Source of the DNA: Cephalotus follicularis | Taxonomy: Eukaryota > Streptophyta > Magnoliopsida > Oxalidales > Cephalotaceae | NCBI GenBank assembly: GCA_001972305.1 | Contig: BDDD01000053.1 | Span: forward strand, 442,266 to 506,265 | Reading direction: 5' to 3' | DNA length: 64,000 nt | Shown: in pieces, positions 2,908 to 55,858 of the stretch | Layout: every line of letters starts with the position of its first letter | Numbering within the stretch: the first letter of the stretch is position 1 | Notes under the pieces: generated by a model | Told to the model about the DNA's origin: nothing | The model's input: only the letters and a program-made list of their open reading frames with translations | The model's database searches: none | Position numbers and translations under genes: made by a program

Positions 2908-4405
2908 TGCAATGCCCGAGATTTTTGCACAATGTAATATTTCAATTTTGTTGAAATATTATGAGAATGGTTGAGTTTTCGACCTCAAAGATGCTTATAA
3001 ACCTTAAATATGGTTTGGAGAAAGAAATATGTGTGTTAAACTTGAAAACGACGCAGTTTTGAGGTAAACGCATCGACGTCTTTGGAAAGACGACGACGCC
3101 TTTTGTAATGGAGACACACGTAAATGCATGGGCATGCACGTCGATGTAGGGTGGTGACTTCGACAATTTCTCACGAAAGAGGAAAAGACATCGACGTCTA
3201 ATGAAAGACGTCGACGCCTTTTAAAAGAATGTCTGTCACGTTACGAACTGACAGAGTAACGTGCAGAGGGAAGGATTTAGGATCCATGCAGACACCTTGA
3301 GGCACGGGAAGGAGACGTGTTGATCATGCACAATGGCTTCCTGACCTGCATGACTGAAGATGAGTGATGTAGGTAACAAGTGTTACCATGCATGGAACCT
3401 GCAAAAGGAAAAGAGGAGAAGAAAACAAAGGAAAAATACAGAGTTCTGGGAAAGAGGGAGAGAACCCGAGAGTATCCATTGAATGCAAGGAGAAAGAGGT
3501 TGGGGGAGCCACCTGCATAAGAACAACCCCTCCCCACCTCTCTCTCTCACTTAAAACACCAAAACAAGCAAGAGGAGGAAACCAGTGAGTAAGAGCCACC
3601 ATTATCGAACTTGTTGGAGCTGGAGACTTGGAACTCGTGGGTAGCAGCTGCTAAGAGGATCTTGGAGCTGCTGTGGCCAGGACCTGGGAACTCAAAGAGG
3701 TATCTGGCTTGATGGGTCCTTAGTGACCTGATCGTTGTATTTGGCCCCTTTGGGGATATTTTCGTACTTGTACTATTGTGACCTCGGGTGATACCTGCTT
3801 GTGGATATATATATATATATTATGATCATGTATATCCTGTGTTATTTATGTACTGCATCATGAATACATTCATATCATGTCATTCATTTCTTGATTCCAA
3901 AATGTATTATATGCTTAGCCGAGTGAGGACAAAGGCTAACCCCCTACTGTTTCAGATTGACGGAGACAATCGGACAAGTGTGGTTAAGGCTATTTTGGGA
4001 GCTGCTATTTGAAGTTTGTTTAAACTGATTTCTGTATTATGTTAATCCTTCTCATGTTGGAGAGGATGATGTTTTGTACTTGTTCAATTTGGACATATTG
4101 TATTTGGTGTTTTGAAACAATGCTTTGGTAATTGACTTATATATCTGAACTTCTCTATGGGAGATGTTATGGTTTAAATGATGGTTATATCACGCTCCGT
4201 TTCTTGAGCAGTTAACAATGATGTTGTTTTGTGGTAACACGTAGTATAGGATGCGTGTTACGATTGCTAGTTCGGCTTATATTCAAAGGCTTCCGCAACT
4301 GATGTATATGTTTAAAGGGTTAAATTTTATCGTAAAAATTGATAAGCCGGATTATTTTTGTTAATTGCTACCGTTTATATGTCGTTTGGAAAACGGGGTG
4401 TGACA
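2908..4405 (+). repeat. Y 5' LTR
   Basis: 1498 bp, starting TGCAATGCCC (TGTAACGCCC in the 3' copy) and ending GGGGTGTGACA. Contains the GTCGAC-core cluster at 3070-3220, a TTAGCC/GGCTAA hairpin at 3915-3939, and a short AT microsatellite near 3808-3820. Left flank is the AGATA duplication. Confidence 0.93.
3070..3220 (+). repeat. Y 5' LTR palindrome cluster
   Basis: GTCGAC-like cores near 3072, 3092, 3140, 3159, 3190 and 3210 (steps 20, 48, 19, 31, 20), best copy GACGTCGACGCC. The cluster is repeated in the 3' LTR at 6219-6368. Confidence 0.75.
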
Positions 4406-6055: not shown

Positions 6056-7557
6056 TGTAACGCCCGAGATTTTTGCACAATGTAATATTTCAATTTTGTT
6101 GAAATATTATGAGAATGGTTGAGTTTTCGACCTCAAAGATTCTTATAAACATTAAATATGGTTTGGAGAAAGAAATATGTGTGTTAAACATGAAAACGGC
6201 GCAGTTTTGAGGTAAACGCATCGACGTCTTTGGAAAGACGTCGACGCCTTTTGGAATGGAGACGCACGTGAATGCATGGGCATGCACGTCGATGTAGGGT
6301 GGTGACATCGACACTTTCTCACGAAAGAGGAAAAGACATCGACGTCTAATGAAAGACATCGACACCTTTTAAAAGAATGTCTGTCACGTTACGAACTGAC
6401 AGAGTAACGTGCAGAGGGAAGGATTTAGGATCCATGCAGACGCCTTGAGGCACGGGAAGGAGACGTGTTGATCATGCACAATGGCTTCCTGACCTGCATG
6501 ACTGAAGATGGGTGATGTAGGTAACAAGTGTTACCATGCATGGAACCTGCAAAAGGAAAAGAGGAAAAGAAAACAAAGGAAAAATGCAGAGTTCTGGGAA
6601 AGAGGGAGAGAACCCGAGATTATCCATTGAATGCAAGGAGAAAGAGGTTGGGGGAGCCACCTGCATAAGAACAACCCCTCCCCACCTCTCTCTCTCGTTT
6701 AAAACACCAAAAGAAGCAAGAGGAAGAAACCAGTGAGTAAGAGCCACCATTGTCGAACTTGTTGGAGCTGGAGACTTGGAACTCGTGGGTAGCAGCTGCT
6801 AAGAGGATCTTGGAGCTGCTGTGGCCAGGACCTGGGAACTCAAAGAGGTGGACTCTAATCTGGCTTGATGGGTCCTTAGTGACCTGATCGTTGTATTTGG
6901 CCCCTTTGGGGATATTTTCGTACTTGTACTATTGTGACCTCGGGTGATACCTACTTGTGGATATATATATATTATGATCATGTATATCCTGTGTTATTTA
7001 TGTACTGCATCATGAATGCATTCATATCATGTCATTCATTTCTTGATTCCAAAATGTATTATAGGCTTAGCCGAGTGAGGACAAAGGCTAACCCCCTACT
7101 GTTTCAGATTGACGGAGACAATCGGACAAGTGCGGTTAAGGCTATTTTGGGAGCTGCTATTTGAAGGTTGTTTAAGCTGATTTCTGTATTATGTTAATCC
7201 TTCTCATGTTGGAGAGGATGATGTTTTGTACTTGTTCAATTTGGACATATTGTATTTGGGGTTTTGAAACAATGCTTTGGTAATTGACTTATATATCTGA
7301 ACTTCTCTATGGGAGATGTTATGGTTTAAATGATGGTTATATCACGCTCCATTTCTTGAGCAGTTAACAATGATGTTGTTTTGTGGTAACACGTAGTATG
7401 GGATACGTGTTACGATTGCTAGTTCGGCTTATATTCAAAGGCTTCCGTAACTGATTTATATGTTTAAAGGGTTAAATTTTATCATAAAAATTGATAAGCC
7501 GGATTATTTTTGTTAATTGCTACCGTTTATATGTCGTTTGGAAAACGGGGTGTGACA
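6056..7557 (+). repeat. Y 3' LTR
   Basis: 1502 bp, TGTAACGCCC to GGGGTGTGACA, colinear with the 5' LTR and a little under 3% different by eye. Hairpin copy at 7067-7091. Right flank is the AGATA duplication at 7558-7562. Confidence 0.93.
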
Positions 7558-7828: not shown

Positions 7829-8024
7829 TGTAACGCCCGGAAAGTTCATTCATTGTAATAATTTAACTTCCGATGTAACCTTATTATGGGGTTAATGAGA
7901 ATAATGAAATTTCTGACTTTGATGATGTTTTCCAAACTCTAATGATGTTGATTTTGGAGTATTAAAGGTAAAGAAAAGTTAAAAGTGTAAGATTAAGTCA
8001 AAACGACACAGTTTTGAGGCTAAA

Positions 8025-8125
8025 GTGCCGACGCCTTTAGTGGAGCATCGACGCCTAAGTAATTAAAACACGCGCTTAATTCAAACACATAAGCGTCGAC
8101 GCCTGCATGTAAATGTCGACGCTTT
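8025..8125 (+). repeat. X LTR palindrome cluster 1 (GCGTCGACGC type)
   Basis: Four copies of a GTCGAC-core palindrome, cores starting near 8027, 8047, 8095 and 8115 (steps 20, 48, 20). The best copy is AGCGTCGACGCC; the others differ mainly by CpG-decay-type changes. Element Y has the same 20-48-19 pattern at 3072-3159. Confidence 0.75.
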
Positions 8126-8400
8126 GCATCATGGTTCTCGTATACATAAACAGCAGATAGACGTGGTGCACAGAGGCATATTCATGCCACTCTTCAAGCA
8201 CCCTCACATGCATTTTGTGATGTGTTGATCATGCATTGAGATTCCCTGCCTTACTAGTACTTGAAAAGCGCTGAAGAAAGAAAGAATCTCTGAGTTCATG
8301 GCCTGTGAGGAGGAATAATGCAACACCTGTTGCGTCAGGCTTGCGTGAAGGAGAGAGACTTGAACTAGTGGGCATATGCAGATGAAACAAGGATGAAATC

Positions 8401-8410
8401 TGCATAAAAG
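8401..8410 (+). promoter_or_regulatory. X LTR TATA-like element
   Basis: TGCATAAAAG lies upstream of a CT-rich stretch, as at a plant retroelement promoter. The same string is conserved in Z on the minus strand at 12558-12567. Transcription start not determinable. Confidence 0.5.
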
Positions 8411-8907
8411 TGGAACCTCTCACCTTTCTCTCAGTTGTTACTGATAGAAGAAGAAGCCAGAGTCTGAGAGAGAGACAGAGAGTAAAAGAGAGCAGAAGAA
8501 TTAGAGAGAGAAAAGCTCAAACTCCATTGTTGAGCAAGGGAGAACTTGGAGCTGGGAAAACGACTGTGGAGCGAACCGAGGAACTTTCAGGCCGAACCTG
8601 GGGACTCAAAATGACTGACTGGGTACTAAAAGAGGTGGACTTTCGGCTTCTAACTTGAGGCTAGAGGTAGGGGAAGCCATACTTGTATTTTGTGTTCAAT
8701 ATTTATGTTTGTCCAGTGATGTTTATGCATGGATTGCATGGCCTGTTGAACTGTTTTTGGTCACTGAAATTATGCCATGTCATACTGGTGATGTAATATG
8801 ATGTTGCATGTCTGTTTTTTGGGCCTTATACATGTTGGATTGCATGCTATTGTTATGGAAATGTCACTGTTTGGTCACGTCGTGAGGAAGAAGACGACTG
8901 ATGCTTG

Positions 8908-9105
8908 AAACCATCGACGCCTTTGGTAAGCGTCGACGCTTTATACTGTGAACTGCGTTTTATATGCTGAATGCGTTTTAAACGTCGGTGCCTATGTGAG
9001 GAGACATCGACGCCTAGACACTGGAAAGCGCTAACGGTATGGGGCTGAACGTCGAAGCTTAATGGACATAAGCGTTGATGCCTAAGAAAAAAACGCCGAC
9101 GCTTT
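8908..9105 (+). repeat. X LTR palindrome cluster 2 (GCGTCGACGC type)
   Basis: Cores near 8913, 8932, 8984, 9006, 9029, 9051, 9074 and 9095. The last six are 21-23 nt apart, while intervening bases differ from copy to copy, so this is not a simple tandem repeat. Confidence 0.75.
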
Positions 9106-10415
9106 AGAGTCCTGTTTGGACAGTTATCACGATTTTGACACCCAACAACCCCGAATTCGCTTAGGACGCATCCGAGCATTTGTATGCATTGCATATGCAC
9201 TGTTTACTGCCTGTTTATTGACTAATTATAAGCTGTTGATGATTTCTAGATTACTATGTTAATTTAGAAATGCATATGTGAAACTGAAAATGATTATTTT
9301 GAATGCAATATAGATATTTGATAATAACACATTTTTGAACAACTGGGAAAGTGATTTCCACTCACTGAACTGTTTAAAAGTATTTTCCACTACTTAAAAT
9401 ACATATTTCAAATGTTTATGACTCTTGAAAACATTTTGAAATGAACTGCCTGTAGTTGATCTAACGATCATTACTGTACTGTTCACTGGACTGTTTACTG
9501 GGATTATTCACTGTTTGCTCTGTGAATTTACTGTGTTTGTGCTTGAACCACTAATTGCATGGCAGAGACTGCCAGCGCCGGCTAGTGGCAGGGTTGACCT
9601 AGGAGCCAAGAGTTCGTTGGGTAACTCACTGCACTGTACTGTTGTCTCGCTTGGTTGCCTGAAGAAGGGACCGAAGTGGGAGTGTAACGTGGGGCCAGAA
9701 GTTGGCGGCGTCACACATACTGCCTGCATGTTGTGGTCCCTTTGTAGAGTTACTGTACTGTTTACTGGTCATGTTCGGACACTACTGTGCCTGTTTGATA
9801 TAGCCCTGGCCGGGCTACCACTGTACTGTTGTTGCTTACATATATTTTTATATATGTTCCTACTGATATTTTTACCGTACAGTTAAATTATATATATATA
9901 TATATATTTTATATATATATAAAAACTAGTATTTTTACTATACTGCATCATCTATGCATACATTTCATGACATGCATGTAAGGTTGATCCCAAACTACTT
10001 TTATGACTTAGCTGAGTGAGGACAAAGGCTAACCCCTTACTTTACAAATTGATGCAGTAGATCAGCTTAGGAATCAGCATGGATGAAGTACAAGTTTTAA
10101 TAATGTTTTACTCAGGGTTATGTCCCTTTGAGTGTTGTGTATCGTATCTTTTATTTCCGGTTCACTAGACTTTTTAATGTTATTGGATAATGTATTATGG
10201 ATTACGCTCCATTTTGTGGGCTTTTAACTATGACAGACTTGTATTGAGTAGCGTGCAGTATGGGATGGAAGTTACGTGTTTTTCAGCTTATGAGTTTAAT
10301 GCTTCCGCAACTGATATCTTATTGAAAAGTTTAAATTTTATGATTTTTACATAAGCTGAATCTTAATGTTAATTGCCTTTACCACTTTATGTGTGTCTAC
10401 CTGAAACCGGGGCGT

Positions 10416-10445
10416 CACACACACACACACACACAGATATATATA

Positions 10446-10477
<32 letters not shown>
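10416..10477. repeat. Inverted CA / AT / TG microsatellite
   Basis: A CA run, then AGATATATATATCT, then a TG run: almost one perfect inverted repeat of about 60 bp. It lies exactly between the end of the X LTR and the next element and may have grown from the CACA terminus of the LTR. Confidence 0.9.
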
Positions 10478-10478
<1 letters not shown>

Positions 10479-11789
10479 CAATAGGTGCAACCACGCCGAG
10501 TGGCTATGTCGCACCCTGATTTTAGGTAGACACACATAAAGTGATAAAGTCAATTAACATTAAGATTCAGTTATGCAAATACCATAAAATTTAAACTTTT
10601 CAAATAAGATATCAGTTGCGGAAGCATTAATATCATAAGCTGAAAAATACGTAACGTGCATCCCATACTGCACGCTACTCAATACAAGTCTGTCATTGTT
10701 AAAAGCCCATAAACGAAGCGTGATCCATAATACATTAATCAGTAACATCCAATTCTAATAACTGGAAAATACAGTACACAACACCCAAAGCGGACATAAC
10801 CCCTGGTAAAACATTATTAAAAACTTGTACTTCATCCATGTTGATTCCCATGCTGGCCCACTGCATCAATCTATAAAGTAGGGGGTTAGCCTTTGTCCTC
10901 ACTCGGCTAAGTCATAACAGTAGTTTGGGATTAACATTACATGCATGTCATGAAATGTATGCGTAGATGATGCAGTGCAATAGAAAATACAATTTTTTAT
11001 ATATATGAAAATATATATAAGTTAGCATTACAGTAAAATAACAGTAGGGACATATATATGAAAATATATGTATGCAATAACAGTACACTAGTCGCCCGGC
11101 CAGGGCTACATTAACAGGCACACTAATGTCCGAATAGGACCAGTAAACAGTACAGTAAGTCCACAAAGGGACTAACAAACAGGCAGGCAGTATGTACAAC
11201 GCCGCCTACTCCTGGCCCCACGTTGCTCTCCCACTTCGGTCCCTTCTCCAGGCGACCAAGCAAGACAACAGTACAGTACAGTGAGTTACCCAGCCAACTA
11301 CTGGCTCCTAGGTCAACCCTGCCACTAGTCGGCGCTGGTAGTTCCTGCCATGCAACTAGTGGCTCAAGCACGACCACATAAAAATCACAGAGAAAATAGT
11401 GAACAGTCACAGTAAACAGTGCAGTAAACAGTACAGTAATGATCGTTAGATCAACAACAGACAGTTTATTTCAAACTGATTTCAAAAGTGATAACATTTG
11501 AAATACGTATCTTTAATAGACTTTAAACAATTCAGTCGTGGAAATCGCTTTCTCAGTTTGTTTGAAAATACATTTTTAACCAATATATATTTTCGTACTC
11601 AAAATAGTGTATTCCGAGTTCACATATGCATTTCTAAATATCGTAACTTAGAAATCATAAACTATTTATAGACAGTCAATAAACAGGCAGTAAACAGTGT
11701 ATATGCAATGCATACAAATGCTCAAATGCATCCTAATAGGAGTCGGGATCGTTTCGTATCATTAAGTAAGAAAACTTCCAAACAATACA

Positions 11790-12060
11790 AGAAGGCATCG
11801 ATGTCTATTATTAGGCGTCGATGTCTTTGTCCCGTAAACGTCGACGCTCAAGTCCTTAGCATCAGCGCTTTCCACTGTTTAAAGACGTCGATGTCCAACT
11901 TATACGCATCGATGCTCAAGGTAGGGAACCTTAAACGTTAGTGTATTTCTTAAGGCGTCGACGCGTTAAGGTAGGAACCTTAGGCGTCGACGTATAAAAT
12001 GTCAATATCCAAGCAAATAACCAAAAGGCGTCGATGTTCCTCAAAGGCGTCGACGTGTTT
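11790..12060 (-). repeat. Z palindrome cluster 2
   Basis: About ten GCGTCGACGC-like copies, for example GGCGTCGACG near 11955 and 11987 and several CpG-decayed forms. Positional counterpart of the X cluster at 8908-9105. Confidence 0.7.
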
Positions 12061-12603
12061 CGAGCACCAGTCATCTCCTTCCTCACGTCGTGACAAACAG
12101 TAATCGACACAGTCCATATACATGCAAGATAACATGTAATCAAGCTAGGAAACCAACATGCAGATACATATCACATACCCAGCATAACATGGCATTGATC
12201 CATTGATCCAAAACAGTTCAATAATCATGGAAAATATGCATAAAAACCATCGTCCAAGCATGAATATTAAGCTCAAGAATACAATTATGGATTCCCCTAC
12301 CTCTTTGTTCCAAGTTAGGAACTAGAAAGTCCTCCTCTTTTAGTATCCAGATGGTCACTTTGAGCTCCCAGGTACTGCTTGAAAGCTCCCTGGTTCGTCC
12401 CCACAGCTGCTGTCAAGCTCCAAGCTTCCACTTGCTCAACAATGGTGGTTTGAGCTTTGTGTCCCTAACCTTATGCTCTCTTTCCCTCATTGTGTTTCTC
12501 TCAAGCCTCTGGTTCTTTCTCAATCAGTAACACTCGAAGGTAAGAGGTGAAGGCCGTCTTTTATGCAACTCACATTTGTTTCTCTTTGCCAACCCACCAG
12601 TTC

Positions 12604-12645
<42 letters not shown>

Positions 12646-12864
12646 ATCACTGGATGCAATAGGTGTCATTTTCTTCTCTCTTCCCAGGCCAAGCAATAAA
12701 AAATCCACTCTATGTTCCAAGTATTTTTGTTACAGGTAATGTGGGCATCATACGCATGCAAGCCACGTCTCCAGAGAGTCTGCCCAAGTGCCGGTTAAGT
12801 GGCACAAAGTCATCTCCATGCGACACGTTCACCAGCTGTCCGTATATATCAGGGACACGACACA

Positions 12865-13150
12865 AGGCATCGACGTCTTCTTCCTCACGTCAACGTCTTT
12901 ACACGTTTACCCGAAAGGCATCGACACATATACTGTGCGTCGTTGTTTCCCTTTGCATGTTATTCAGTAGAATAACGTGCCTGACATTCGATGTTACGCA
13001 TCGACGTCTTCTTTAGACATTGACATCGTTCCCCTTTTTACATGAGGGCATCGATGTTCTCGCCTGCATCGACGTGCATGTGCATGCACTTACGTGCGCC
13101 CTTTGTCCCTATAGGCGTCGACGCTTTCCTTAGGGCGTCGACGTGCTTAG
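12865..13150 (-). repeat. Z palindrome cluster 1
   Basis: GTCGAC-core copies with mixed decay, best GGCGTCGACGC near 13115 and GGGCGTCGACG near 13133. Counterpart of the X cluster at 8025-8125 but with more copies. Confidence 0.7.
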
Positions 13151-13378
13151 CCCAAAACTGTGCCGTTTTTGACTTAACAATTGCTTTAACATTTCCTTAA
13201 CATTTTTATTCCAAAATCAATATCATTAGAGTTTGGAAAACATCATCAAAGTCGAGAAATCCATCATTTTATTAATTCCACAATAAAAGTATATTTACAT
13301 CGTGAAATTACATCATATGAAAATCTCGGGCGTTACAGGCTACAACCATAAAATCATCCACCATGTCTCAAGGGACAA

Positions 13379-13436
13379 TCAAATCAAATCAAATCAAATC
13401 AAAGCAAGTCAAATCAAATCAATTCAAATCAACTAT
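13379..13436. repeat. AAATC-type simple repeat
   Basis: Irregular run of CAAAT/CAAGT/CAATT pentamers inside L. Low-complexity sequence; the short ORFs crossing it are not genes. Confidence 0.85.
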
Positions 13437-13984
13437 ACAAAGAGCGTCTCCATCTCCTGGCCCCAACGTCGTTCTCTCACTTCGGCCCCCGACTCACGGG
13501 TCACGAAGCAATGCAACAAATCAAACTCATGATGCTCGCATACTGTGTTCAGCAATCATGGTATCCCGTGTTACTTGCACTCAGTGTTTAGTAATATTGT
13601 ATTTGGACTTCCCTAGCCATCTCCTGGCCCCTAGGAGAACATCCCGCCACCAGCCATCAGCGACACTCCGTCACCCCAGTCAGTACGGCATCAATTACAA
13701 TCAACAAATCAATTCAAATCTAATCATTTCCAAGTAATTTATAAAATACTGGAAACAATACATTTATTTTAAAATGTATTCCATCTTTGAAACCATGTTT
13801 CAATCCGTCGAAAACATACATTTATCAAAATATACATTTTCGTATCAAATAATGATTTGTATAAAATCATGTACACATTTCTAAAATGAATAAAACACTT
13901 TAAAATCATTCACATTTCAATCAGCATTTCATTTTATATCAAAATGCAATGCAAACATATGTTCAAAGTGCAGGTCAGTCCCCA

Positions 13985-14448
13985 ACCAGCCAACTGTCTC
14001 CCCTTGATAGTCGGCTATTTTCTTTCCACAGTCGGCTATCTCCTCTTGATAGTCAGCTATTTTCCTTCAACAGTCAGTGGTTGCCCCCCTTAACAGTCTG
14101 CTATCTCCTCATGACAGTCGGCTGCTTCATAAATAGTACGCGTTTTCTACATCACTACTCGCCCCAGCTTCGCCACCTCGGCGAATCCGGGTAAGGCGAC
14201 ATGTGAACAGTTGACTGTCATCCCAAACAGTCTGTTGTGCCATCTACAGTCGGCTGCCCTCACTCGGCAGTCGACTACACAACCGGCAGGAGGTGACCTC
14301 CATTAAAAAGCATGAACAATCGACTGGCTCCTTAGCACAGTCTGCTATTTCCATCGAGTAGTTGGCTGTTCTCATTGAACAGTTGGCTTGTACCCTCGAA
14401 CAGTCGGCTGTCCTGCTGGGCAGTCGGCTGCTCCTACGAGCAGTGCAC
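13985..14448 (-). repeat. L palindrome cluster 2 (CAGTCGACTG type), 21-nt phased
   Basis: Two runs. Cores start at 13989, 14010, 14031, 14052, 14073, 14096, 14117, then 14210, 14230, 14249, 14270, 14319, 14340, 14361, 14382, 14403, 14423 and 14443. Most steps are exactly 21 nt, the rest 19-23, with one wider gap. Intervening bases differ between copies, so the spacing rather than the spacer sequence is kept. Confidence 0.85.
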
Positions 14449-14940
14449 AAAAATAACATAAAATACATGCAGTTCTCAGCCCAATCCAAACACAACAAAG
14501 CATTCATCAACAATAACACATTTCATGCTCATATCACAGTCTATTGCATGGATTTCATCTATGAACATCCATTATAACTAAACTCAAACCACAATTATAA
14601 AATCCCCTACCTTTGAATTTCAAGTTAGGAATTGCAATCCACCTCTTTAAGTCCCGGATCTGAGGCGTTCAAAGCTCCCAAGTCTGTGTAACAACTCGAC
14701 CAAGCTCGATTCTTCCACTGGTTTAAACCTCCAAGCCCCTGGTTCAAGTATGGAGCATTTGTGGTTCACTTCTCTCTCTTTTCTCTCCTTTCTCCTGCAC
14801 AATCTCTCTATCTCTTTTCTCTCTTTGAAATGCTGATGGAAAGAGGAGAATAGGGTGTGTTTTTATGGACAAAACGCATCTCCCTTTCTCTCTCCTCACC
14901 TGCCAACATATCATCTCAATCACCTCTCCCTCTGCCATGA

Positions 14941-15100
14941 CAGTTCTGGCGTGCATGTTATGCTGTCTGACTCATGGCAGTCGACTGTTTTCGTTGGCAG
15001 TCTCCTGTCTCTGCCGACAGTTCCAGCCTGCTGTTTCCCCAAACAGTCGACTGGTTCCACTTAAGGGGGTCTAGTCGACTGTCTCTCTCTGACAGTGGGC
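14941..15100 (-). repeat. L palindrome cluster 1 (CAGTCGACTG type)
   Basis: Cores near 14943, 14965, 14980, 15000, 15020, 15046, 15074 and 15095. It lies about 160-310 bp from the LTR start, the same place where X, Y and Z carry the GCGTCGACGC type. Confidence 0.75.
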
Positions 15101-15263
15101 TGCCCACCCTGTTGCCACACATCCCATAATTTCCTTTATCCTTTTCGTTCAAGTCTTAGCATTACAAAGTGGGAAAAGTCATTATTCTCATTAATTCAAA
15201 GCATAGATTACATCGGGAGACACAATATTACATTTGATGAAAATTCCAGGGGTCACAATAATA

Positions 15264-15640: not shown

Positions 15641-17573
15641 CCATTACAAAATCCAGAAAAGCTTCCTTTCTTCCCCCTTTTGTCAAATCATGTCTCATCT
15701 TTACTCCTTTATTGAGTGCCATTGCCATTTTATATGATACCTCCATCATTATTACAAGTCACATCCGAATCTGCCCTATTGGTGTGCAATAATCTGCTGT
15801 GTAATTCATTCTTCAAAGTTCAAGAGGTAATCTCAACCCTTGATTGTTTCTTTTGGGTTAAATTCTCTTAGTTTGCTATGTATGTCTAAGTATGTCATGG
15901 TTTTGTATCCTTCTTTATTTGTTTTGTTCACAGCCGAATTGTGAGTGTGTACTAGTGTTTCTTCTACTGTTTTTGTATTATGGGAATCACTACAGGTCAG
16001 TAAATTCATTCCCTTTAATTATAGTTTTGATTCAATGGCATACTTTGAGTTTTTGTGCTCTTGGTATCTTAGGGTCTTTGATTTCTGCCCAAAAGTGTTA
16101 TCATTGTGTTAGTAATGTTATCTGCAAGTTTTATGCACCTATATATGTCACAAACTGAGTTTATAACATCTGTAATCAATTAGAGACAGAATCTGGACAT
16201 GTTCATGCAATGTCTTCTTGCTTCCTTTTACAAGTTAAATCATTGAAAGGTCGTTTCCTTGTCAAATTTGTGTTTGTAAGTCACCTACAAGTCATATATA
16301 ATCATACGTTTATGTCCGTATGTCTCTAGTTTAATTTAGAAACCATTTGAACCATTTTCAGTAGCAAATCGTCGGATTTCCAACTGTTCTGTCGCCCAGA
16401 ACAGTCGGCTGTCTGTGTGGACAGTCGGCTGGAATGGTTGTGTAGTCGACTGGAGGGAAGAACACAGTCGACTACCTGCATTTTTTATTGTGTAGTCGAC
16501 TGTTCATATGGTCCAGTCGACTGCCAAGCCTCCCCAGTCTACTGGATTGCTGTTTCAGTCGACTGTTTTGCCTTGGAATGTGCTGTTTTCAACTGTTTTG
16601 ATTCGTTTGATCCCCGAATCGATCCGAATCTTTCCCAAACACTTTTAAGAGTCTGTTTAATGCTTCTGATGTGTCTTAGACTCTTACATGTATGATTTTA
16701 CATGCCTTTTAGACTGTGTACTTCAAAGGATAATTTGTTTTTGATCGCCTATTCGTAAGTACTTTGCAAGTGCATAAGGTACATAATTTTTTGTTCCTTG
16801 GCTACCTGACATTCAAACTGAAACTGTTTTGATAAAACATCTTCATTTATGAAATCAACGATGTTTCATGATTTGTTTACATTTCGAATTTAAAGTTGGT
16901 TTGACATTTTAATTGATTCCGACTTTGTCTATACAATATGTTATGGTACGATATGTTAGGATACAATATGCTATGTTATAATACTGTTGTGAGCAGTTTT
17001 TGAATATGTTGTGTGAAAACATATTTATGTGATTTAAGTTGATTTTGAGAAATCAATTATTTTAAATTAAATACTGAGTATTGTAAAAAATATGCAATTG
17101 TCATTTGAATATGATTAAACTGTTGTAACTGTTTAAGATTTCTGTTACGAAGTTCATTGAAATATTACTGTTTTTAAGTTATCGTTTACTGTTTTATTTC
17201 CCTTATCCGTACTGAGGTTTGCTCAGCCGCATTTTTGTTTCCATGCGGCAGGTTTTTAGGAGCAGCGGGGGAAAGTGTGATTGAGTGATGACTACCCTTT
17301 ATGATGGATCCTTAGGAGAGTGATCCTTATGTTATGTTTAGTGGTCCGAATCATGGATTTTTATGTTTTATGTTTTAATTTGGAACTGATTTATGTTTTG
17401 AATTTTCCTCAACAACTTAATATGTTTTAATATTTTGATAAGACTGCCACGTTTTCGGCTGTTATTGGCTAAATAAAGCAAACTTATGATTTGTTAAGAA
17501 ATGTATATGCTCAGATTGTTATGTTATGTATGATACGACCCTGTGACGACTCCCGCCGTCCGGGGGTGTTACA
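15641..17573 (+). repeat. I 5' LTR (left end uncertain)
   Basis: Ends CCGTCCGGGGGTGTTACA at 17573, next to the primer site. Contains the palindrome cluster at 16400-16565 and a CCGCAT/ATGCGG hairpin (17227-17248). Full LTRs of this group (E, F) are about 3.1 kb, so the left part here is probably missing or hidden. Sequence from 15641 to 16380 shows no coding potential. Confidence 0.75.
16400..16565 (+). repeat. I palindrome cluster (CAGTCGACTG type)
   Basis: Cores at 16404, 16424, 16445, 16467, 16495, 16516, 16537 and 16558: steps 20, 21, 22, 28, 21, 21, 21. D at 40504-40637 repeats this step pattern almost exactly. Confidence 0.88.
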
Positions 17574-17578
17574 GATTT

Positions 17579-17590
17579 TGGTATCAGAGA
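17579..17590 (+). other. I primer binding site (tRNA-iMet)
   Basis: TGGTATCAGAGA, one base from the standard initiator-Met site, 5 nt after the LTR. Confidence 0.88.
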
Positions 17591-17743
17591 ATTTGGTTTT
17601 GTTTCCTTAGAAGACCTAACTAGGTTTGACCTGTGAGATTGGGTAGACACCGGGTTAGGCTGTTTCGGTTATGATTTTCTGATATGTTTTCTGCTTTCTG
17701 TTTTGTTCCTTGTGATGTTTTATGTTTAAGCGTCTTTTCGTAG

Positions 17744-19476
17744 ATGACACGTACAAGGAACGCTGCTCGGAGGACTGCACCCGTTGAGGCTCAGGAAGCT
17801 AGAAATGAGTCTACTATGGAGGAGCTTTTACGACAGGCAGTTGCTCAGGAGATACAACGCGTGTTGGGCGAGCAGAATCTGAATCAGGACCGTAGGGAGT
17901 CGGTTGTTGCTAATGATGCTCCAGCTGATGTCCAGTTGGGAAGAGATGCTGGGGACAAGACTGATACTCCCACTTATGTTTGGCTAGAGCGGTTCCAGAA
18001 GCAGAGACCGCTATCTTTTAGCTCAGCCGTGACTCCGGTGGAAGCTGAGCACTGGATTGCTAATATGGACAAGATCTTTGATGTGCTTGGTTGCAGTGAT
18101 GAACAGAAGATTAAGTTAGCTGTGTACAAGCTTGAGGGTGATGCTCAGAAATGGTGGAAAGCTGTGGTTTTGGCTAAGGGTATGCGGAGACTTTGACCTG
18201 GTTTGAGTTTTGCGAGGTCTTTTATCAGCAGTACTTTCCTACCACTGATAAGGAGGCTTACGCCAGAGAGTTTATCAATACCAGACAGAAGGATGGAGAG
18301 TCGGTGACAGAGTTCTTGACCCGTTTCACTAGGTTTGCTGGTTTTGCTGGTTCTGCGGCAGGGACAGCATTGGAGCAGGCAGAAAAGTTTAAGTGGAAGT
18401 TGCACTATCAGTTTCGGGGTAAATTGATCAACACTAGGTTTGCTGATGTATCTGAAGTGGCTAATGCGGCTAAGAACATTGAGCTGGAAAGGTTAGATTT
18501 CCAGGCTGCTCGACAGGAGTTTGACAGAAAAAGGAACAGAGGTGATTCCCAGGGGCAAGGTTCTGGACAGAATAAGTATAGGAATGGTAAGCGTGGGAAG
18601 AGAAATGATAACCGGGGACAACAATATTCCGGTAGTGACCAAAGGCAGACACAGGGAGCTGCGGATGTTCAAATTGCAAAGTGTGATGTGTGTGGTAGAC
18701 AGCATCCGGTGGGAGTATGCTATAAGGCTATCGGGGCCTGTTTTGTGTGTGGACAGAGAGGGCATTTCGTGAAGGATTGTCCTGACCCTCGTGCAAAGGA
18801 AAGGAAGGGAAACAATGCAGATCGTGGACAGCGCAACGTGGGAGGTCGTGTCTTTGCTATCACGACTCAGCAGGCAGCTAATGCACCAGGTACTGTTTCG
18901 GGCTTTATTTATGTTGGTAACCGTAGGGCTTATGTTTTGTATGATACTGGATCGACCCACTCGGTTGTAGCGAGGTCTTTTGTTCGGCATCTTGGGATGT
19001 CTCCTCAGTTGCTTGATCCAGCTTTGGTTCTTTCAAACCCTACGGGCTCTTCTGTTGTGATATCTGAGTGCTTTTATGCTTGTCCTCTTGTTTTCGATGA
19101 TCGGGTTCGTGATGCGGATCTTTTGCCTATCGATATGTACGACTTCGATATGATTCTGGGAATGAACTGGTTGGATCGTCATCGGGCTACTATCGATTGC
19201 TATGCTCGAAGGGTTCTGTTTGGGGATGTGAATAGTCCTGAGTTTGTTTTTCAGGGTTCACAACCTAGGAAAGAAGTGAAAGTTATATCCGCTTTGAAAG
19301 CTCGGAAATTAGTAGCTAAGGGCACTGAAGGTTTCTTAGCTATTGTGAAGGATGTCTCAAAGGTTGAGCCTCGCCTTGAAGACTATCCTGTGGTGCGAGA
19401 ATTTTCTAATGTGTTTCCAGAGGAGTTACCGGGTTTGCCACCGCAACGGGAAGGAATATGGCTCAGTATGTTTTAA
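17744..19476 (+). pseudogene. I gag-protease region
   Basis: Starts MTRTRNAARRTAPVEAQEA. The gag domain includes WLERFQKQRPLSFSS, HWIANMDKIFDVLGC, KWWKAVVLAKG and FYQQYFPTTDKEAYAREF. CCHC-like knuckles CDVCGRQHPVGVC and CFVCGQRGHFVKDC follow. Then comes the aspartic protease with active site VLYDTGSTHSVVA and the segment DFDMILGMNWLDRHRATIDCY, and the linker to RT, VVREFSNVFPEELPGLPP. Fossil with about two breaks. Gag differs from that of W and Y, so I is another chromovirus family. Confidence 0.88.
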
Positions 19477-19507
19477 TGAACTATGATTTATAACGTTCCG
19501 TAATTGT

Positions 19508-19999
19508 TTCAAAAAATATGCAATTGTCATTTGAATATGATTAAACTGTTGTAACTGTTTAAGATTTCTGTTACGAAGTTCATTGAAATATTACTGTTTT
19601 TAAGTTATCGTTTACTGTTTTATTTCCCTTATCCGTACTGAGGTTTGCTCAGCCGCATTTTTGTTTCCATGCGGCAGGTCTTTAGGAGCAACGGGGGAAA
19701 GTGTGATTGAGTGATGACTACCCTTTATGATGGATCCTTAGGAGAGTGATCCTTATGTTATGTTTAGTGGTCCGAATCATGGATTTTTATGTTTTATGTT
19801 TTAAATTGGAACTGATTTATGTTTTGAATTTTCCTCAACAGCTTAATATGTTTTAATATTTTGATAAGACTGCCACGTTTTCGGCTGTTATTGGCTAAAT
19901 AAAGCAAACTTATGATTTGTTAAGAAATGTATATGCTCAGATTGTTATGTTATGTATGATACGACCCTGTGACGACTCCCGCCGTCCGGGGGTGTTACA
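19508..19999 (+). repeat. I partial 3' LTR
   Basis: Matches 17088-17573 almost base for base and ends GGGGGTGTTACA. Hairpin copy CCGCAT/ATGCGG at 19653-19674. No clear duplication of the right flank (ATAGA) was found on the left of the element. Confidence 0.85.
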
Positions 20000-22159: not shown

Positions 22160-22650
22160 GGGCGTCGACACTATGAGTTTGCGTTGATGCCTATGTCTAG
22201 TGTGGCTGCTGGGCGTTGACGCGAAGGGATTGCGTTAACACTGGAAAAACCAGTAGCTTTACACGTCAACCCCAAGAGGGCATCACGTAGATGTCTAAAC
22301 TAGAAAGTCCGCTGGGCGTTAACGTTATGGAGAGCATGGCGTTAACACTAGAAAAACCAGGGGCTTTCCGCGTTGACGCCATGGGGTTTAGGCGTTGACG
22401 CGAAGACAAATGACACTATGCACCTGTCTCAAATTATTCACGGCGTTAATGCCTTTTCGTAATGCGAGGCGCGTACACGTCGACGCCTTGCGTACACGTT
22501 GACACCAAGAGGAGAGAGAAAGTCAGCACTATAAATAGTTTGAGAGAAACTTGCTGAACACACTTGCACTCTTTCTTTCTCTCTCTTCCCTCCTATGCAA
22601 TCTCTTCTACCTGCTCTCATACGCGTCGACGCCTATTGCCTAAGCGTCGA
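22160..22650 (+). repeat. N palindrome cluster around the promoter
   Basis: GCGTCGACGC-type copies with strong CpG decay (many GCGTTGACGC and GCGTTAACAC). Cores near 22164, 22183, 22215, 22234, 22265, 22318, 22341, 22372, 22394, then copies at about 22480-22500 and 22623-22650. A larger unit of about 103 bp repeats from 22208 to 22311. The TATA box lies inside the cluster. Confidence 0.75.
22530..22537 (+). promoter_or_regulatory. N TATA box
   Basis: TATAAATA followed about 30 bp later by a CT-rich start region. Fits a plant LTR promoter. Confidence 0.75.
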
Positions 22651-23338
22651 CGCCTGTGTCACTTGATATGTTAAAGCAGCCATTTTCAAGTCTCCTTTCA
22701 CCACTCAAACATCATAATAGGTGGAGATAACTTGCACACTACTTCTTATCTTTATCTAGAGTAATTTAGACTAGGTTAAACACCTTGCCTTCTCCCATCT
22801 GTGGCTTGTGGAGGAGCTTGGAGCTTTTGGAGCTTTTGAGGATAAAGTGTAGAGGGAACTATCTTGAAGGAAGGAGTCTTCACCACCGGTAAGAATCCGT
22901 TTCTTCCTCCCCCTTTGTGGCGCCATGGCAGTGAGTGTTGATGTGGGTGCGTGAACCCTTGCCAAACCTCCATGGTTCTCTTGCTTTATTTTGTGTGTCA
23001 TTCCTTATTGTTAGGGATGATGTGGGTGAGGGTTGATTGGGCTATGGTTAGGGTTTTGTGTGTTATTCCTTGTAAGCCATTGTTAGTGTCCAATGCTAGG
23101 GTTTATGGTAACCCTAGCTTTATCAACCCCTTGTGCCCTATGCTTGGGTTTTTGGTTTCGGTTTAATTGGATGTTGATTAGAGTTCCTTGGCATTTATTG
23201 GAACCTTTTGGACTTAGATTAGCGCATCCCATTGCTTGGGGATTAACCAATTGAGACAATTTCAAAGTTAATCGGCCCTAAACCGCTAAGTCCGAATTGT
23301 AAAGTCTTTCGCTGCGCTCGGGCCGAGTGTTCCCAACA

Positions 23339-26690: not shown

Positions 26691-28504
26691 TTTATAGCAA
26701 CCTTGATAAGAAAAAATAAAGATAAATTAGCATTTATTGCAATTTTAATATATGACTACTATAACACTTGGTCTTTTGTGCTTATGGTTCCTCCCACTAT
26801 TCTAATCGTATCCCATACCCCCATATGGAACTTGAGAAGTCCAACTTCTTAGTGGGGATTGGAATCCACCGCAATCATATTACGGCCTTAGTTAGGGCAT
26901 GACAAATCATAATATATCCAATGGGTAGGCTATCTTGCCAATCTGTATCCAATACAAGATCCAATCATAAAATTTTGGCCTTAGATTCAATATGGCCTCA
27001 ACTAGGTCATGACAAGCCATTAGAATCACGATAAATCAAACACCCATAATTTTCATTGGAATGCACTAGTTTTAACGTGTCCAAGTGCTAAAACGTAGCC
27101 ACCCTTTGCGGTGCCCAACACCGACGTTGACATAGTATTCCACAGGTTACCAGCCTCAGCTAGGGCATGACAATCTAATAACCCACGTACACCACTCAAC
27201 AAAAATTATGAAAGTCCACGGGGAACTACTCTGTGGGTTCCTACGTTCAGACTTATTATTAAATTAAGGGAATCTGCGGTCTCAAATTTTAATTACAGAG
27301 CCTTTAATTAATTCATTGGTTTCATTATGCAATTCCAATTAATTACGGCTTTGCATGCATGACGTGTATTTGGACTATCCATCTTATGCACCTTGGACTT
27401 ATTTCTAAAATAAATCAATGGAATGGGAAGGACTTTACTATGAGTAATGACTTGAGCCCAATGTCACTACTCGGTCTTCCTAGGTGCGATGATTTAATCT
27501 ATCTATTACATTCGGAACCATGCATTCATGGCCTTCAAAAGTCTTGTACTTCTTTTATCCCCTCCTCCATTTCTCCTTGCAAAGTCTTCATTTACAAAAG
27601 GAACTTCACATTTCAAAAATGAAAATTACATACAAAATATCAAGGAAAAAAAAACATAAGAGGAAAAATAAAATGGTGCACGTAAGCACCTTATTACGGA
27701 CCATTGGATAATAGATAAATTAAATCATACACAAAAGAAAAACCAAATCTAGGTCTTGTGCTTATAGGCCATCCATTGTGCATAAGAGTATTAAAATACA
27801 TATCTAATATTACTTCAAAACAACACAAAAATGCCTTATAATAACCAATTATAAAATTTAATATCAGAGGTTGTTTATAGATTAAACTCCCATTAAATCA
27901 AGCAATAATCAATTATCCTTTAAGTGCCCTTAATGAAAAAATTTCTAATTTTAGCAATATTTAAAATTCTTGTTTTAGGCATCCACGCATTCCATAAGCG
28001 TCGACGCTTAACTCCTAAGTGTCGACAATTTGCCACAAACCGTCGACGCTCAATACATCTTTCAGCGCACAGGTAATCGTCAAAGCTAACGAAACGCATT
28101 AACGCTTTAACCTTTAGCGTCAATGCTTAACCAAAACCACTGACGCCAAGTGCCTAAGCGTCGACGGTTTACCACAAACCGTTAACTCTTAGCACAGCCT
28201 CCAGGACTAAAAATACAGGTAATTTGAATAAGCGTCGACGCTTATCATAAGCGTTGACGCTTAAACCTGCTGCCAGTCCACACCACGTCACAAAACAGCA
28301 GTTTTCCAGTGTTTGGACTTTGGCATTCAAACTTTGGCAATCTAAACTGCACCATGGAGGTTCTAAACACAAGTCTCAAACATATCAAAACCAGTTTATG
28401 AATTAAATCCAATTTTTCCATTCAAAAACTTAAAACATCAAGAACCATACAAACACAATCAGTCATTATCTTAGGCATCAAAATTCAATTATGTATGATG
28501 TGGT
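26691..28504 (-). other. J leader region, non-coding, with palindrome cluster
   Basis: About 1.8 kb between primer site and gag, unusually long for Copia. It is AT-rich with phrases such as AGGGCATGACAA recurring near 26893, 27000 and 27163. It carries the GTCGAC-core cluster at 27985-28265. No protein-coding signal. An unrecognised old insertion inside it cannot be excluded. Confidence 0.6.
27985..28265 (-). repeat. J leader palindrome cluster (GCGTCGACGC type)
   Basis: Cores at 28000, 28021, 28042, 28079, 28098, 28119, 28139, 28160, 28181, 28234 and 28253. Most steps are 19-21 nt; the two larger gaps are 37 and 53. Best copies are AAGCGTCGACGCTTA near 27997 and 28231. Confidence 0.85.
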
Positions 28505-30714: not shown

Positions 30715-30925
30715 TTCTCCCCGGGCATTACTGGTGTGGTGGTCTCCTCAGGCATTGCTGGTGTGATGGTTTCCTCGGGCATTGCTAGTGTGGTGGTCTC
30801 CTCGGGCATTTGCTAGTGTGGTGGTCTCCTCGGGCATTGCTAGTGTGATGGTCTCCTAGGGCATTTGCTGGTGTGGTGGTCTCTCCGGGCATCGCTTGTG
30901 TGGTGGCCTCCTCGGGCGTTGACTG
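30715..30925. repeat. 27-bp tandem repeat in B
   Basis: Seven to eight units close to GGGCATTGCTAGTGTGGTGG plus TCTCCTC, with small changes and single-base insertions. Confidence 0.85.
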
Positions 30926-31199
30926 AGCGAAGTAGCTTCTCTGGTGTTTTGTTGAAGATGCCTTCTCGGGCGTGAATCTCCTCGGGCTACTTGTTCTGTT
31001 GCTGGGAGTGGGTTGGCATCTGTGGATGGTTTGATATCCGTGAATGAGCTGTTGTTCCGTGGATGGTCTGGTACTCTGTAGTGGGCAGGTGTGTATGGCT
31101 TCTCTACGGGCAGGTGGTGGAATTGTTGTGGCATTCTACATCTTGCTGTTGTGGATGATGCCTGAAGGTAGACATGCCAACTTGTCAAACTACGTTGCA

Positions 31200-31660
31200 G
31201 GGGTGCGTACCCTTGAAGTGTCGAGCTCCTGGGCAAGCAGTGCTTGTCGTCTGGTACCTTGCAGTGCTTGTGGCTTAGTACTTGCGGAGCTTGTTGTCTG
31301 GTACTTTGCAGAGGTTGTGGTATGGATTGTTGTCTGACACCTTGCAGAAGTTGTGGTCTGGCTTGTTGTCCGGCACTTTGCAGAGGTTGTGGTCTGGCTT
31401 GTTGTCCGGCACTTGCAGAGGTTGTGGTCTGGCTTGTTGTTTGGTACCTTGCAGAGGTTGTGGTCTGGCTTGTTGTCTGGCACCTTGCAGAGGTTGTGGT
31501 CTGTCTTGTTGTTTGGCACCTTGCAGAGGTTGTGGCCTGGCTTGTGGTCCGGTACCTTGCAGTACTTATGGTCTGGTGTTGTGGTCTGACATGTTGTAGA
31601 GGTCGTCGTCTGACATACTGCAGAGGTCCTCGCCTGGCATATTGCAGAGGTGGTGATCAA
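31200..31660. repeat. 36-bp tandem repeat in B
   Basis: About ten units that read like TTGCAGAGGTTGTGGTCTGG followed by CTTGTTGTCTGGCACC. Because 36 is a multiple of three, frames stay open on both strands and give repetitive peptides; these are artefacts. Confidence 0.88.
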
Positions 31661-34039
31661 GGGTCTAGAGAGAAAAGGGTCCGTGGACGCCTAGGGGTTT
31701 CATACGATGATTGTAACACGGTGCTTGTTCGTAAGTATTTTTACGGATTTTTTATGTGTTTTGTTTTCGAGCTTTTTAAATTTTGTTTAATTTTAAAGTC
31801 CGGTTGCCCTTTGTTTTGGGCCTATGTGATTTGGGTTGACTGATACCAGCCTGAAATTTTGGGTACGTTTATATGTTAATGTACGCTGGGTTGGGCCTAT
31901 GTTATGTCTTTTTATTTTTTTTTTATCAAACTTAATTTTACAACTTTCGAAATATTAAAATAATTTCTTTTTATTATAAAATCCATTTTATCTTATCTTA
32001 TTTTATTTTATTTTATTCTTTTTCTTTTATTCTTTCCATTTCTTTCTTCTTTCCCTCTTTCTTTGTTTCCTTTCTTTCTTCCCTCTCTTTCTCCCGAACT
32101 CTCTCCTCCTCTCATCAATTTCACACGTTAACAATCTTCTTCTTTCCTTATTAATATGATTTTGTCCCATTAATTTCCTTATCTTTCCTTCTATTCTCTC
32201 TTCCTCTTCCCGTTTAAGAGTGCTTTGTCTTTGTGTGTATGTCATCCGTTGTTCCACTGCCTGGCACTGCCGAATTGCAAGTGGAAATTGCTGTGTTCTT
32301 GTGATTGTTTTGTTCTTCATCAAAATCAGGTTTGGCCGTTGTCTTTTGTTGTCTTTTGATCATATTTCTTTGGCAAGCTTTGAGTTGTGTTGTTTTCTTC
32401 CTTTGATTTCCTGTTGTTCAGCCGTTTTACAACTGCTTTTGTAAGGCCCCAAATTTTATAAATAATTACTTTACTATTGGCACAGTGTATAGCCGTATTG
32501 AGCCGATGGATCCCGAATCGATAAAAATCATCGCGTATTGGAGCCGTAAATCGTAAGGCCCAAAATGATTAATAAAGTCCATTTTTAATTCGCGACAATA
32601 AGGCCCTATGTTCGCATTTTTATTGCGATTATTTTGGTACCCATTCGGATAATTAATATTGTCGTTTGCGGATTAAATGGGACTCAGGCCTTAGTATTTT
32701 GACCAGTAAATACCAAGAACGGAAGCAAAATTTGAAAGAAGGAAGAAGAGACACACAGGCGCATAAGGCACCTGTGTGTGTTAGAAGAAGGCAGACGAGA
32801 GAAAGAGGTATCGGGAGAGAAAGCAAGAGAGAACGGGAGAGAGAGCTTGGCGCCGGAGAAGACCACGGCGTCGGACCAGGAGCTCACCGGTCAGAGCCTC
32901 CAGTGCCGACGGTAAGCCTCCTTCCTTCTTCTCTTCTATTTTCTTCTATTTTCTGCCCGTTTTCTCCTCCCCGACGCCGTCACTGTCGCGCGTTGCCGTG
33001 CGTTCCATCGCCGGTTAGCGTCCCGGGTGGGTACAGTCTTCACCCAGGAGGCCGGCTACACCTATTTCAGTGACCGATTTGGCGTCATTCGGCCGGAAAC
33101 GGCCGGATTCGAACTGGCGAGTTGACTCAGTGGAGCCAACTCGCTGCCGCCTATGACCACGCAATGTGCGCCGAGTCTCGGTGAGTTAAGGGCTTAGACG
33201 TGTTTGTCTGGTGGTTGTGATGCGTTTTATGGTGGTGGCCGGAGCTGTAGTTGACCGGTGAGTCAACTTAGTGAGTTGAACTCACTGGCCAGCCGTGACA
33301 GCGCGTTCACAAAGAGTCACGGCGAGTCTCTGGCAGTGACGCATAGAATTGATGATTGTGTGGTGATTTTGGGTGGTGACCGAAGCTGTGGGTGACCGGC
33401 GAGTTGACTTAGTGAGTTGACTCACTGTCGGCCGTGACAGCGCGTTTCACGATGAGTCACGGTGAGCCTCCGATGGTTTTGAACATATTGCCCAATGTGG
33501 AACCTGTTTTTGGGTTTCGCCGGAGCTAAATGAGTTGGCCGGAAACTGGCCGAAGCTCCGATGACGGATGTTCTTGGTTTCCGTGCATAGAGTGTAACGA
33601 AAATGCGTTGTACATGCAGGATAAAGGAAACGATCAAGGATAAGTAAAACGATCAAGGATAGAGGATGTTCGAGCTTTACGAGCTCAGTTGCTACGAGGT
33701 AGGTTATACTATTGCTTGCCTTACAGTCATGCATTTTAAATAATTATATGGATTGATGTGTACGAATTGTATTTGTGTGGATGCATGATTGTGTATATAT
33801 ACATATACATATATATACGAGCATACGGATGGATATATATACTGCATATGGCATATGATATAAAGGTTCGACGTTGAATTAAGAGGAGATGAGTTCTTGC
33901 CTTCTCTTAATTCACGGGCTATGGGATGAATTTTAAAGGGCTTTGAACTGTTTTGGACATAGTTCCTTTGGTTTGCCAACACTTTTGTAAACTGCATTTT
34001 CTATCAAAACCGTCAACACTTTATGCTTTCCAAAACCAA

Positions 34040-39588: not shown

Positions 39589-40476
39589 TGTAAGGCCCCA
39601 AATTTTATAAATAATTATTTTAATATTGGCACAGTGTATAGCCGTACTGAGCCGATGGATCCCGAATCGATAAAAATCATCGCGTATTGGAGCCGCAAAT
39701 CATAAGGCCCAAAATGATTAATAAAGCCCATTTTTAATTCGCGACAATAAGACCCTATGTTCGCATTTTTATTGCGATTATTTTGGTACCCACGGATAAT
39801 TAATATTGCCGTTTGCGGATTAAAAGGGACCCAGGCCTTAGTATTTTGACCAGTAAATACCAAGAAGGGAAGCAAAATTTAAAAGAAGGAAGAAGAGACA
39901 CACGGGCGCATAAGGCACCCGTGTGTGTTAGAAGAAGGCAGACGAGAGAGAGAGGTATTGGGAGAGAAAGCAAGAGAGAATGGGAGAGAGAGCTTGGCGT
40001 CGGAGAAGACCGGGACGTAGGACCAGGTGCTCACCGGTCAGAGACTCCACTGCTGACGGTAAGCCTCCTTCCTCCTTCTCTTCTCTTTTCTTCTCTTTTC
40101 TGCACGCTTTCTCCTCCCCGACGTCGTCACTGTCGCGCGTTGACGTGCGTTCCACCGCCGGTTAGCATCGCGGGTGGGTCCAGTCTTCACCCAGGAGGCC
40201 GGTTACACCTATTTCAGTGACCGATTTGGCGTCATTCGGCCAGAAATGGCCGGATTCGAACTGGCGAGTTGACTTAGTGGAGCCAACTCGCTGCCGCCTA
40301 TGACCACGCAATGTGCACCGAGTCTCGACGAGTTAAGGGATTATAGGTGTTTGTCTGGTGGTTGTGATGCGTTTTATGGTAGTGGCCGGAGCTGTAGTTG
40401 ACCGGCGAGTCAACTTAGTGAGTTGAACTCACTGGCCGGCCGTGACAGCTCATTCACGACGAGTCACGGCGAGTCT
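39589..40476 (+). repeat. C partial 3' LTR
   Basis: Colinear with 32440 to about 33330; similarity to the 5' LTR stops near 40476, where D sequence begins. Confidence 0.88.
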
Positions 40477-40497
40477 CAGCCCGTTCACGCCTTGTTA

Positions 40498-40645
40498 TGT
40501 ATAGTCGACTGCCCGATGAACAAGTCGACTGCCTTGTTATGCACAGTCGACTGCCTGCATTCTGGTTTGTGTAGTCGGCTGGCCCTTGTGATTAGTCGAC
40601 TGCCAAGCTTCCCCAGTCGGCTGGTGCTCTGTAACAGTCGGTTGT
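40498..40645 (+). repeat. D palindrome cluster (CAGTCGACTG type)
   Basis: Cores at 40504, 40524, 40546, 40574, 40595, 40616 and 40637: steps 20, 22, 28, 21, 21, 21. Nearly the same register as in I, with part of the spacer sequence also shared. Confidence 0.88.
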
Positions 40646-47575: not shown

Positions 47576-47579
47576 AGTA

Positions 47580-47590
47580 TGGTATCAAAG
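47580..47590 (+). other. A primer binding site
   Basis: TGGTATCAAAG, 4 nt after the LTR: the initiator-Met type site with one change. Confidence 0.8.
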
Positions 47591-47657
47591 TATTGAATAT
47601 TGCTATATTTTGAGGATATAAATTGTGTGAAAATATTTGCTGATCTGATTTCTTTAG

Positions 47658-55857: not shown

Positions 55858-55858
55858 C

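Follow-up and report, generated by a model that had tools for sequence, protein, structure and literature searches.

Long terminal repeats (LTRs) of Ty3/gypsy retrotransposons in a 64,000-nt stretch of Cephalotus follicularis DNA (the window) harbor arrays of short palindromes that share a GTC-GAC center and usually follow one another at a distance of about 21 nt. Two different palindromes are used, which take up homologous places in related LTRs, and in one group of LTRs the palindrome cores are conserved better than the sequence around them. The arrays are real, are more complex than first described, and probably represent a dyad binding-site system in Gypsy LTRs. On balance, we lean toward reading them as clusters of predicted dyad-symmetric binding sites for one or several homodimeric proteins that act on Ty3/gypsy LTRs.

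In such a system, one or more homodimeric DNA-binding proteins would bind to the arrays, which could either serve as enhancers or keep silencing off. The sites would be kept in source elements and lost in inserted copies. Neighboring sites would usually lie two helix turns apart, so that adjacent dimers could touch, and whole arrays would not be presented on one face of the helix. Related LTRs would carry either CAGTCGACTG or GCGTCGACGC at homologous array positions with the GTC-GAC center in common, and some arrays (e.g., L1/L2) would have spread their units by block duplication.

Two palindromes in Gypsy LTRs

The two palindromes are separated by a weight-matrix search. Type A is CAGTCGACTG, with 47 matches, and type B is GCGTCGACGC, which sits within a longer dyad, with 65 matches; the matches of both types include isolated ones that are probably due to chance. 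The GTC-GAC center is common to both types, and the flanking bases differ. Type A is found in the LTRs L, I, D, and F, and type B in E1, X, X′, and elsewhere. The arrays and the elements that harbor them are listed by window coordinates and strand:

2908–4405, + strand: 5′ LTR of the Gypsy element E1, type B sites at 3069–3218
6056–7557, + strand: 3′ LTR of E1, type B sites at 6217–6366
7829–10419, + strand: X, apparently a solo LTR, type B sites at 8024–8123 and 8910–9103
10507–13337, − strand: X′, apparently a solo LTR, type B sites at 12866–13145 and 11794–12057
13338–15257, − strand: LTR L, truncated; starts at about 15257 and abuts X′ at 13337; homologous to the X and X′ LTRs with cores masked
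13987–14124, − strand: L1, type A array of 7 units, spacings 21, 21, 21, 21, 23, 21; duplicated spacers
14247–14430, − strand: L2, type A array that in part duplicates L1
14978–15102, − strand: L3, type A array near the LTR start
16402–16565, + strand: I, type A array of 8 units, spacings 20, 21, 22, 28, 21, 21, 21
17574–19510, + strand: internal part of Gypsy element I with a PBS-like site at 17579, gag, and RVP_2 protease
22161–22654, no strand assigned: type B sites, flanked by pieces of a Copia pol gene (RT on one side, RNase H-like on the other)
27997–28261, − strand: J, type B sites; a Copia gag-like piece follows about 1.3 kb downstream
37099–37245, no strand assigned: C, type B sites
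40502–40644, + strand: D, type A array of 7 units, spacings 20, 22, 28, 21, 21, 21; near the E3 junction at about 40478–40494
54345–54548, − strand: F, type A array of 10 units, homologous to I and D

The window is packed with nested LTR retrotransposons. The LTRs of E1 enclose a PBS-like site and a Retrotrans_gag match, and the LTR of element I ends at about 17573, followed by a PBS-like site, gag, and an RVP_2 protease. D and F are homologous to the LTR of I, X, X′, and L are homologous to each other, and E1 is homologous to X/X′. The coding contexts of E1 and I together with these homologies thus place both palindromes in Gypsy LTRs. A first-pass annotation of this DNA had assigned the arrays to both Gypsy and Copia elements and had envisaged many families. 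The Gypsy context stands, and no Copia LTR with an array could be established. The arrays with a placeable element form two groups of Gypsy LTRs (I/D/F and L/X/X′/E1) and hence fewer independent cases than listed.

The sites of J and of 22161–22654 were considered as Copia LTRs, which could not be shown: the stretch at 22161–22654 interrupts a Copia gene, and the ranges tried yielded no insertion bounded by TG..CA with an exact 5-bp target duplication. The gag-like piece near J scores 16.2 bits, below the Pfam cut-off of 27, and belongs to the same element as a clear Copia RT. Cop2 (58068–58264) was dropped as an array, having three sites without a pitch. It may be a Copia LTR with type B sites, given that a PBS-like site (58990) and a Copia gag match (59136–59447) lie downstream. 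Periodic coding sequence was rejected as well: the scanned ORF pieces with a Gypsy or Copia Pfam match overlap no array, and the sole scanned piece that overlaps one (8856–9203, X2) has only an HTH_51 match far below cut-off.

Several further arrangements are seen in the window. X (+) and X′ (−) are related LTRs that lie tail to tail at 7829–13337, with about 90 bp including a TG repeat between them. Element E3, with LTRs at 32440–33346 and 39589–40494 (93%), lies inside LTR D, the left part of which matches F at about 31744–32439; the D array may have been joined to the end of E3 by a deletion, at about 40478–40494. LTR F lies on the opposite strand inside an element at 46047–57766, which has LTRs of about 1.5 kb (94%) with 106-bp tandem repeats at the LTR start. 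Dense 27-, 36-, and 24-bp tandem repeats occupy open frames on both strands at 30716–31651, where two scanned pieces gave no Pfam match.

Number and spacing of the sites

GTCGAC with at most one mismatch occurs at 250 sites in the whole window, compared to 171±13 in 200 dinucleotide shuffles. Forty-one core pairs are 19 to 22 nt apart (shuffles 1.8±1.4, largest 6) and nine chains of at least three cores are formed (shuffle mean 0.035, largest 1), which rules out a chance origin of the arrays. Ranked by observed over expected pairs at this distance, GTCGAC is second among the 64 six-base palindromes (41 vs 3.9, at most one mismatch), after ACGCGT (19 vs 1.6); GACGTC, which can overlap the type B site, is fourth (22 vs 2.9). 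The pair counts and the ranking are independent of the curated site lists described below.

For L, 14 GTCGAC cores at a 21-nt pitch had been reported in the first-pass annotation. A core is recognizable at the reported positions (weakly at 14073 and 14443), but none of the 14 is an exact GTCGAC: six deviate by one mismatch, seven by two, and one by three. GTCGGC is the commonest form (exact in 5 of 14), and the single exact GTCGAC of the interval is found at 14270. The array L3 was absent from the earlier list. The pitch itself is confirmed in L, where the whole-sequence match at lag 21 (0.56 in L1, 0.50 in L2) beats 500 of 500 shuffles. These values and that of I (0.43) exceed those of all 500 composition shuffles at every lag between 10 and 60. 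Elsewhere, the same test gives a significant pitch in I, a borderline one in D (P 0.058), and no significant one in F, X2, J, and C. X, C, and J, which the earlier annotation listed for the same type of spacing, carry a different palindrome, type B.

Curated site lists were used for the analyses of spacing, folding (spacer shuffle), identity and CpG, spacer similarity, and strand variants. Weak sites that keep the register, detected by walking or by eye, were included in these lists (14071, 14359, 14380, 14998, 54407, 54497, 28018, and 37193), and isolated matrix matches were omitted. With counts that lean toward regularity because of this curation, 34 of 40 type A spacings between neighbors (21 of them exactly 21) and 23 of 46 type B spacings fall at 19 to 23 nt. 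The six remaining type A spacings comprise four of 28, one of 49 (21+28), and one of 26, and the remaining type B spacings spread from 18 to 112 with random helical phase (coherence 0.17). A step of 28 nt equals 2.67 helix turns and breaks the helical phase. Because of these steps and the random phase of type B, the two-turn spacing holds from neighbor to neighbor and not along whole arrays. Dimer sites on one helix face, as proposed earlier, are thereby retained for neighbors, and strict single-face phasing is not supported. The 28-nt step is located at the corresponding place in three homologous arrays (16402–16565, 40502–40644, and 54345–54548) and is found once in L3.

Positional information is high over about 10 bp in type A and over 14 to 16 bp in type B. 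It is low in the spacers of I/D/F and of type B, and the spacers of L keep up to 0.8 bits. These conserved dyads between low-information spacers agree in part with the earlier notion of arrayed dimer sites. The observed/expected ratio of CpG is 1.07–1.84 in type B, 0.39–0.79 in type A, and 0.70 in the whole window.

Signs of constraint on the cores

The cores of I, D, and F outlast their surroundings and keep their CpGs, which are signs of constraint. In five aligned units, core identity is 43/50 (I-D), 42/50 (I-F), and 43/50 (D-F), and spacer identity is 34/50, 32/49, and 35/46, respectively, with 0.56–0.58 for shuffled spacers; the 400-nt downstream flanks in this comparison are identical at 0.75, 0.69, and 0.74. 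MAFFT alignments of longer LTR pieces give 59/70 vs 419/593, 67/80 vs 308/568, and 59/70 vs 309/563 for core vs rest in the three pairs, i.e., 0.84 in the cores and 0.54–0.71 in the rest. The excess depends on the alignment, as spacers reach up to 0.76 with the other aligner and flanks 0.69–0.75, compared to 0.84–0.86 for cores, whose identity is raised because the sites were chosen by motif similarity. CpGs are kept at 12/13, 10/13, and 10/12 in the cores and at 8/25, 2/18, and 4/22 outside, with effective numbers of about half because each shared CpG is counted in both directions. I, D, and F are copies of a single family, all three from this window, and the three pairs are not independent.

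Between X and X′, the cores are no more alike than the rest (105/144 vs 1814/2396), and the CpG excess in the cores is weak (32/50 vs 46/99, P 0.056). In the two LTRs of E1, the cores differ more than the rest (55/60 vs 1402/1434 identical, P 0.014); CpG transitions account for two of the five differences within cores and for seven of the 32 elsewhere. Such a divergence, here of only five differences, is what one would expect of a constraint that applies to copies while they replicate and ends once they are inserted.

Origin of the units

The arrays could also be old minisatellites, in which units of 21 bp (or 42 bp) arose by slippage and the cores are alike through duplication or gene conversion instead of function. 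This origin fits L1 and L2. Their spacers are alike (0.47 vs 0.08±0.04 shuffled, with 0 of 200 shuffles as high), which indicates that units were copied in blocks; the two arrays align with each other at 68.5% and show lag-42 structure. It is also compatible with the 10 units of F vs 8 in I. The LTRs of F and I align downstream of the last unit, and TCTGTCGCCCAG directly precedes the first unit in both (by eye). With flanks that match on both sides and unit numbers that differ, units were gained or lost in between. Against minisatellites stands the absence of spacer excess over shuffles in L3 (P 0.20), I (0.69), D (0.22), F (0.18), X′ (0.26), and X (0.20), although the cores are kept, since duplication would have copied the spacers too. 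The spacers are thus copied with the cores, as in a simple tandem repeat, in L1 and L2 but not in these six, and in I, D, F, X, and X′ the spacers were randomized around cores that persisted. The earlier statement that this is not an ordinary tandem repeat consequently fails for L1/L2 and holds for I, D, F, X, and X′, and a minisatellite origin of the arrays is unlikely. When I and D are pooled, spacers find alike partners (0.19 vs −0.02±0.05), as would be expected for arrays that were inherited as such.

Folding of the arrays

Instead of binding a protein, the arrays might act as hairpin templates, the transcripts of which fold and give rise to small RNAs for silencing. A precedent exists in the palindromes of maize Sireviruses, which have been argued to be small-RNA hotspots (Bousios et al. 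2016, cited in PMC10760457). Folding is indeed strong: of 30 strand-regions, 22 surpass (z below −3.15) even the strongest of 54 control stretches. In a spacer-shuffle test of 12 arrays (L2, L3, X1, and Cop2 left out), 6 of 16 type B strand-arrays lose at least 3 SD of energy, an excess that may be explained by type B palindromes being longer than the fixed core. L1 folds somewhat better than its shuffled versions (z −2.5 and −2.1). In I, D, and F, the fold energy is left unchanged by shuffling (z −1.1 to +1.2), and no selected pairing is seen beyond the cores; the folding is hence a by-product of having palindromes.

In I/D/F, the GTCGGC variant, which in RNA can still pair with itself through G-U, occurs on the sense strand (G at position 7 in 10/25), and in L it occurs on the antisense strand (C at position 4 in 14/21). 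The G-U compatible form is therefore not consistently on the sense strand and follows no common RNA rule; DNA sites that function in both orientations would be compatible with this. An RNA hairpin as the selected feature is unsupported in I/D/F by both the spacer shuffles and the GTCGGC strand. The link to 21-nt small RNAs that had been raised earlier finds no support: it is the cores alone that make the I, D, and F arrays fold strongly. Hairpin templates are quite unlikely to explain the arrays. The GCCGAC form in L may be related to DRE-type sites, which are bound by DREB factors. An association of DREB1D sites with LTRs has been described (PMC11656987).

Palindrome difference between related LTRs

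L was compared to X and X′ with every listed core masked. The LTR start matches at 71% (L 15257–15158 with X 7829–7929), the sequence between the arrays at 63% (L 14465–14933 with X′ 12156–12625) and 60% (L 14445–14956 with X 8824–8318), and the sequence beyond the second array at 58% (L 13441–13972 with X′ 11196–11730). Where these matches leave gaps, the matrix thresholds used give type A alone in L and type B alone in X and X′. Homologous places of these LTRs have the GTC-GAC center in common and differ in the flanking bases. The palindromes may have been switched by unit-by-unit change, by array replacement, or by recombination with an I/D/F-type LTR, and the direction of the switch can only be inferred.

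If L had obtained its type A arrays from an I/D/F-like LTR, through recombination or template switching, as opposed to a change of its own units, this would account for the palindrome common to L and I/D/F and for a weak similarity of L 13797–13970 to D 41078–41202 and 43792–43962 (about 62%, E about 1e-4). The similar segment, however, is 433 nt away from the array in D and 55 nt in L, type A is present at both array positions of L, and the flanks on both sides match X/X′, which renders this acquisition improbable. The binding-site reading can be extended to a co-evolving recognition system, in which a dimeric host or element protein would read the palindrome arrays in Ty3/gypsy LTRs and lineages would have switched their palindromes together at homologous sites, thereby escaping or attracting a different partner. 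We put this extension forward tentatively, as conceivable rather than probable.

Comparison with known systems

The repeated motifs (RM boxes) of Sirevirus LTRs (Bousios et al. 2010, PMC2829016) resemble the arrays in that many palindrome copies are clustered in the LTR, that they are CpG-rich in most cases, and that different elements use different palindromes. The Vitis RM CGGTCGACCG (Table 3 in PMC2829016) even has the GTCGAC center. Clusters of RMs make up CpG islands; the CpG ratios of the arrays here exceed the window value in type B and range from 0.39 to 0.79 in type A. The CGG-CCG core signature of 12 of the 13 published RMs is absent from CAGTCGACTG and ACGTCGACGC, the flanking bases of which are CA..TG or GC..GC. 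RMs are hosted by Ty1/copia Sireviruses, whereas the arrays lie in Ty3/gypsy elements where the coding context is established (E1 and I, with gag enclosed in both and RVP_2 protease in I). The sections of PMC2829016 covered state no pitch for RMs, compared to usually about 21 nt here, and they call RMs Sirevirus-specific with Ty1/copia as the comparison set. The maize Sirevirus palindromes (PMC10760457) are likewise clustered in the cis-region of the LTR and predicted to fold strongly; they differ in lineage and motif, and the arrays are known from sequence alone. Sirevirus RM boxes are the nearest known feature to the arrays.

VANDALs are Mutator-like DNA transposons. The target motifs of their VANC proteins (Hosaka et al. 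2017, PMC5735166) are short and arrayed in non-coding regions, are gained and lost by tandem repetition, as in the block duplication of L1/L2, and differ between related elements and change together, which is paralleled by L vs X/X′. As printed, the VANC motifs YAGTATTAY and AGTTGTCC/AGTTGTAC are not palindromes, in contrast to the palindromic motifs here. A Pfam scan of 38 ORF pieces, made up of 37 of the 196 that reach 70 aa and one shorter piece, found no VANC-type protein. VANC targets are the nearest evolutionary model for the arrays.

Two pattern scans of viral_contigs gave four loci. The inspected stretches of three loci (L001, L002, and L004) contain no comparable array, L001 and L002 having short tandem repeats, and L003 was scanned for sites only. 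Palindrome arrays at a 21-nt pitch in Gypsy LTRs are not described in the titles and opening abstract lines of the literature matches listed, outside of which most of the subscription literature lies. Palindrome boxes have been described as a Sirevirus feature (PMC2829016) and are found here in Ty3/gypsy LTRs. Together with the signs of core constraint and the use of one or the other palindrome at homologous LTR positions, their presence there would suggest that plant retrotransposons have a control code that is more general and can change.
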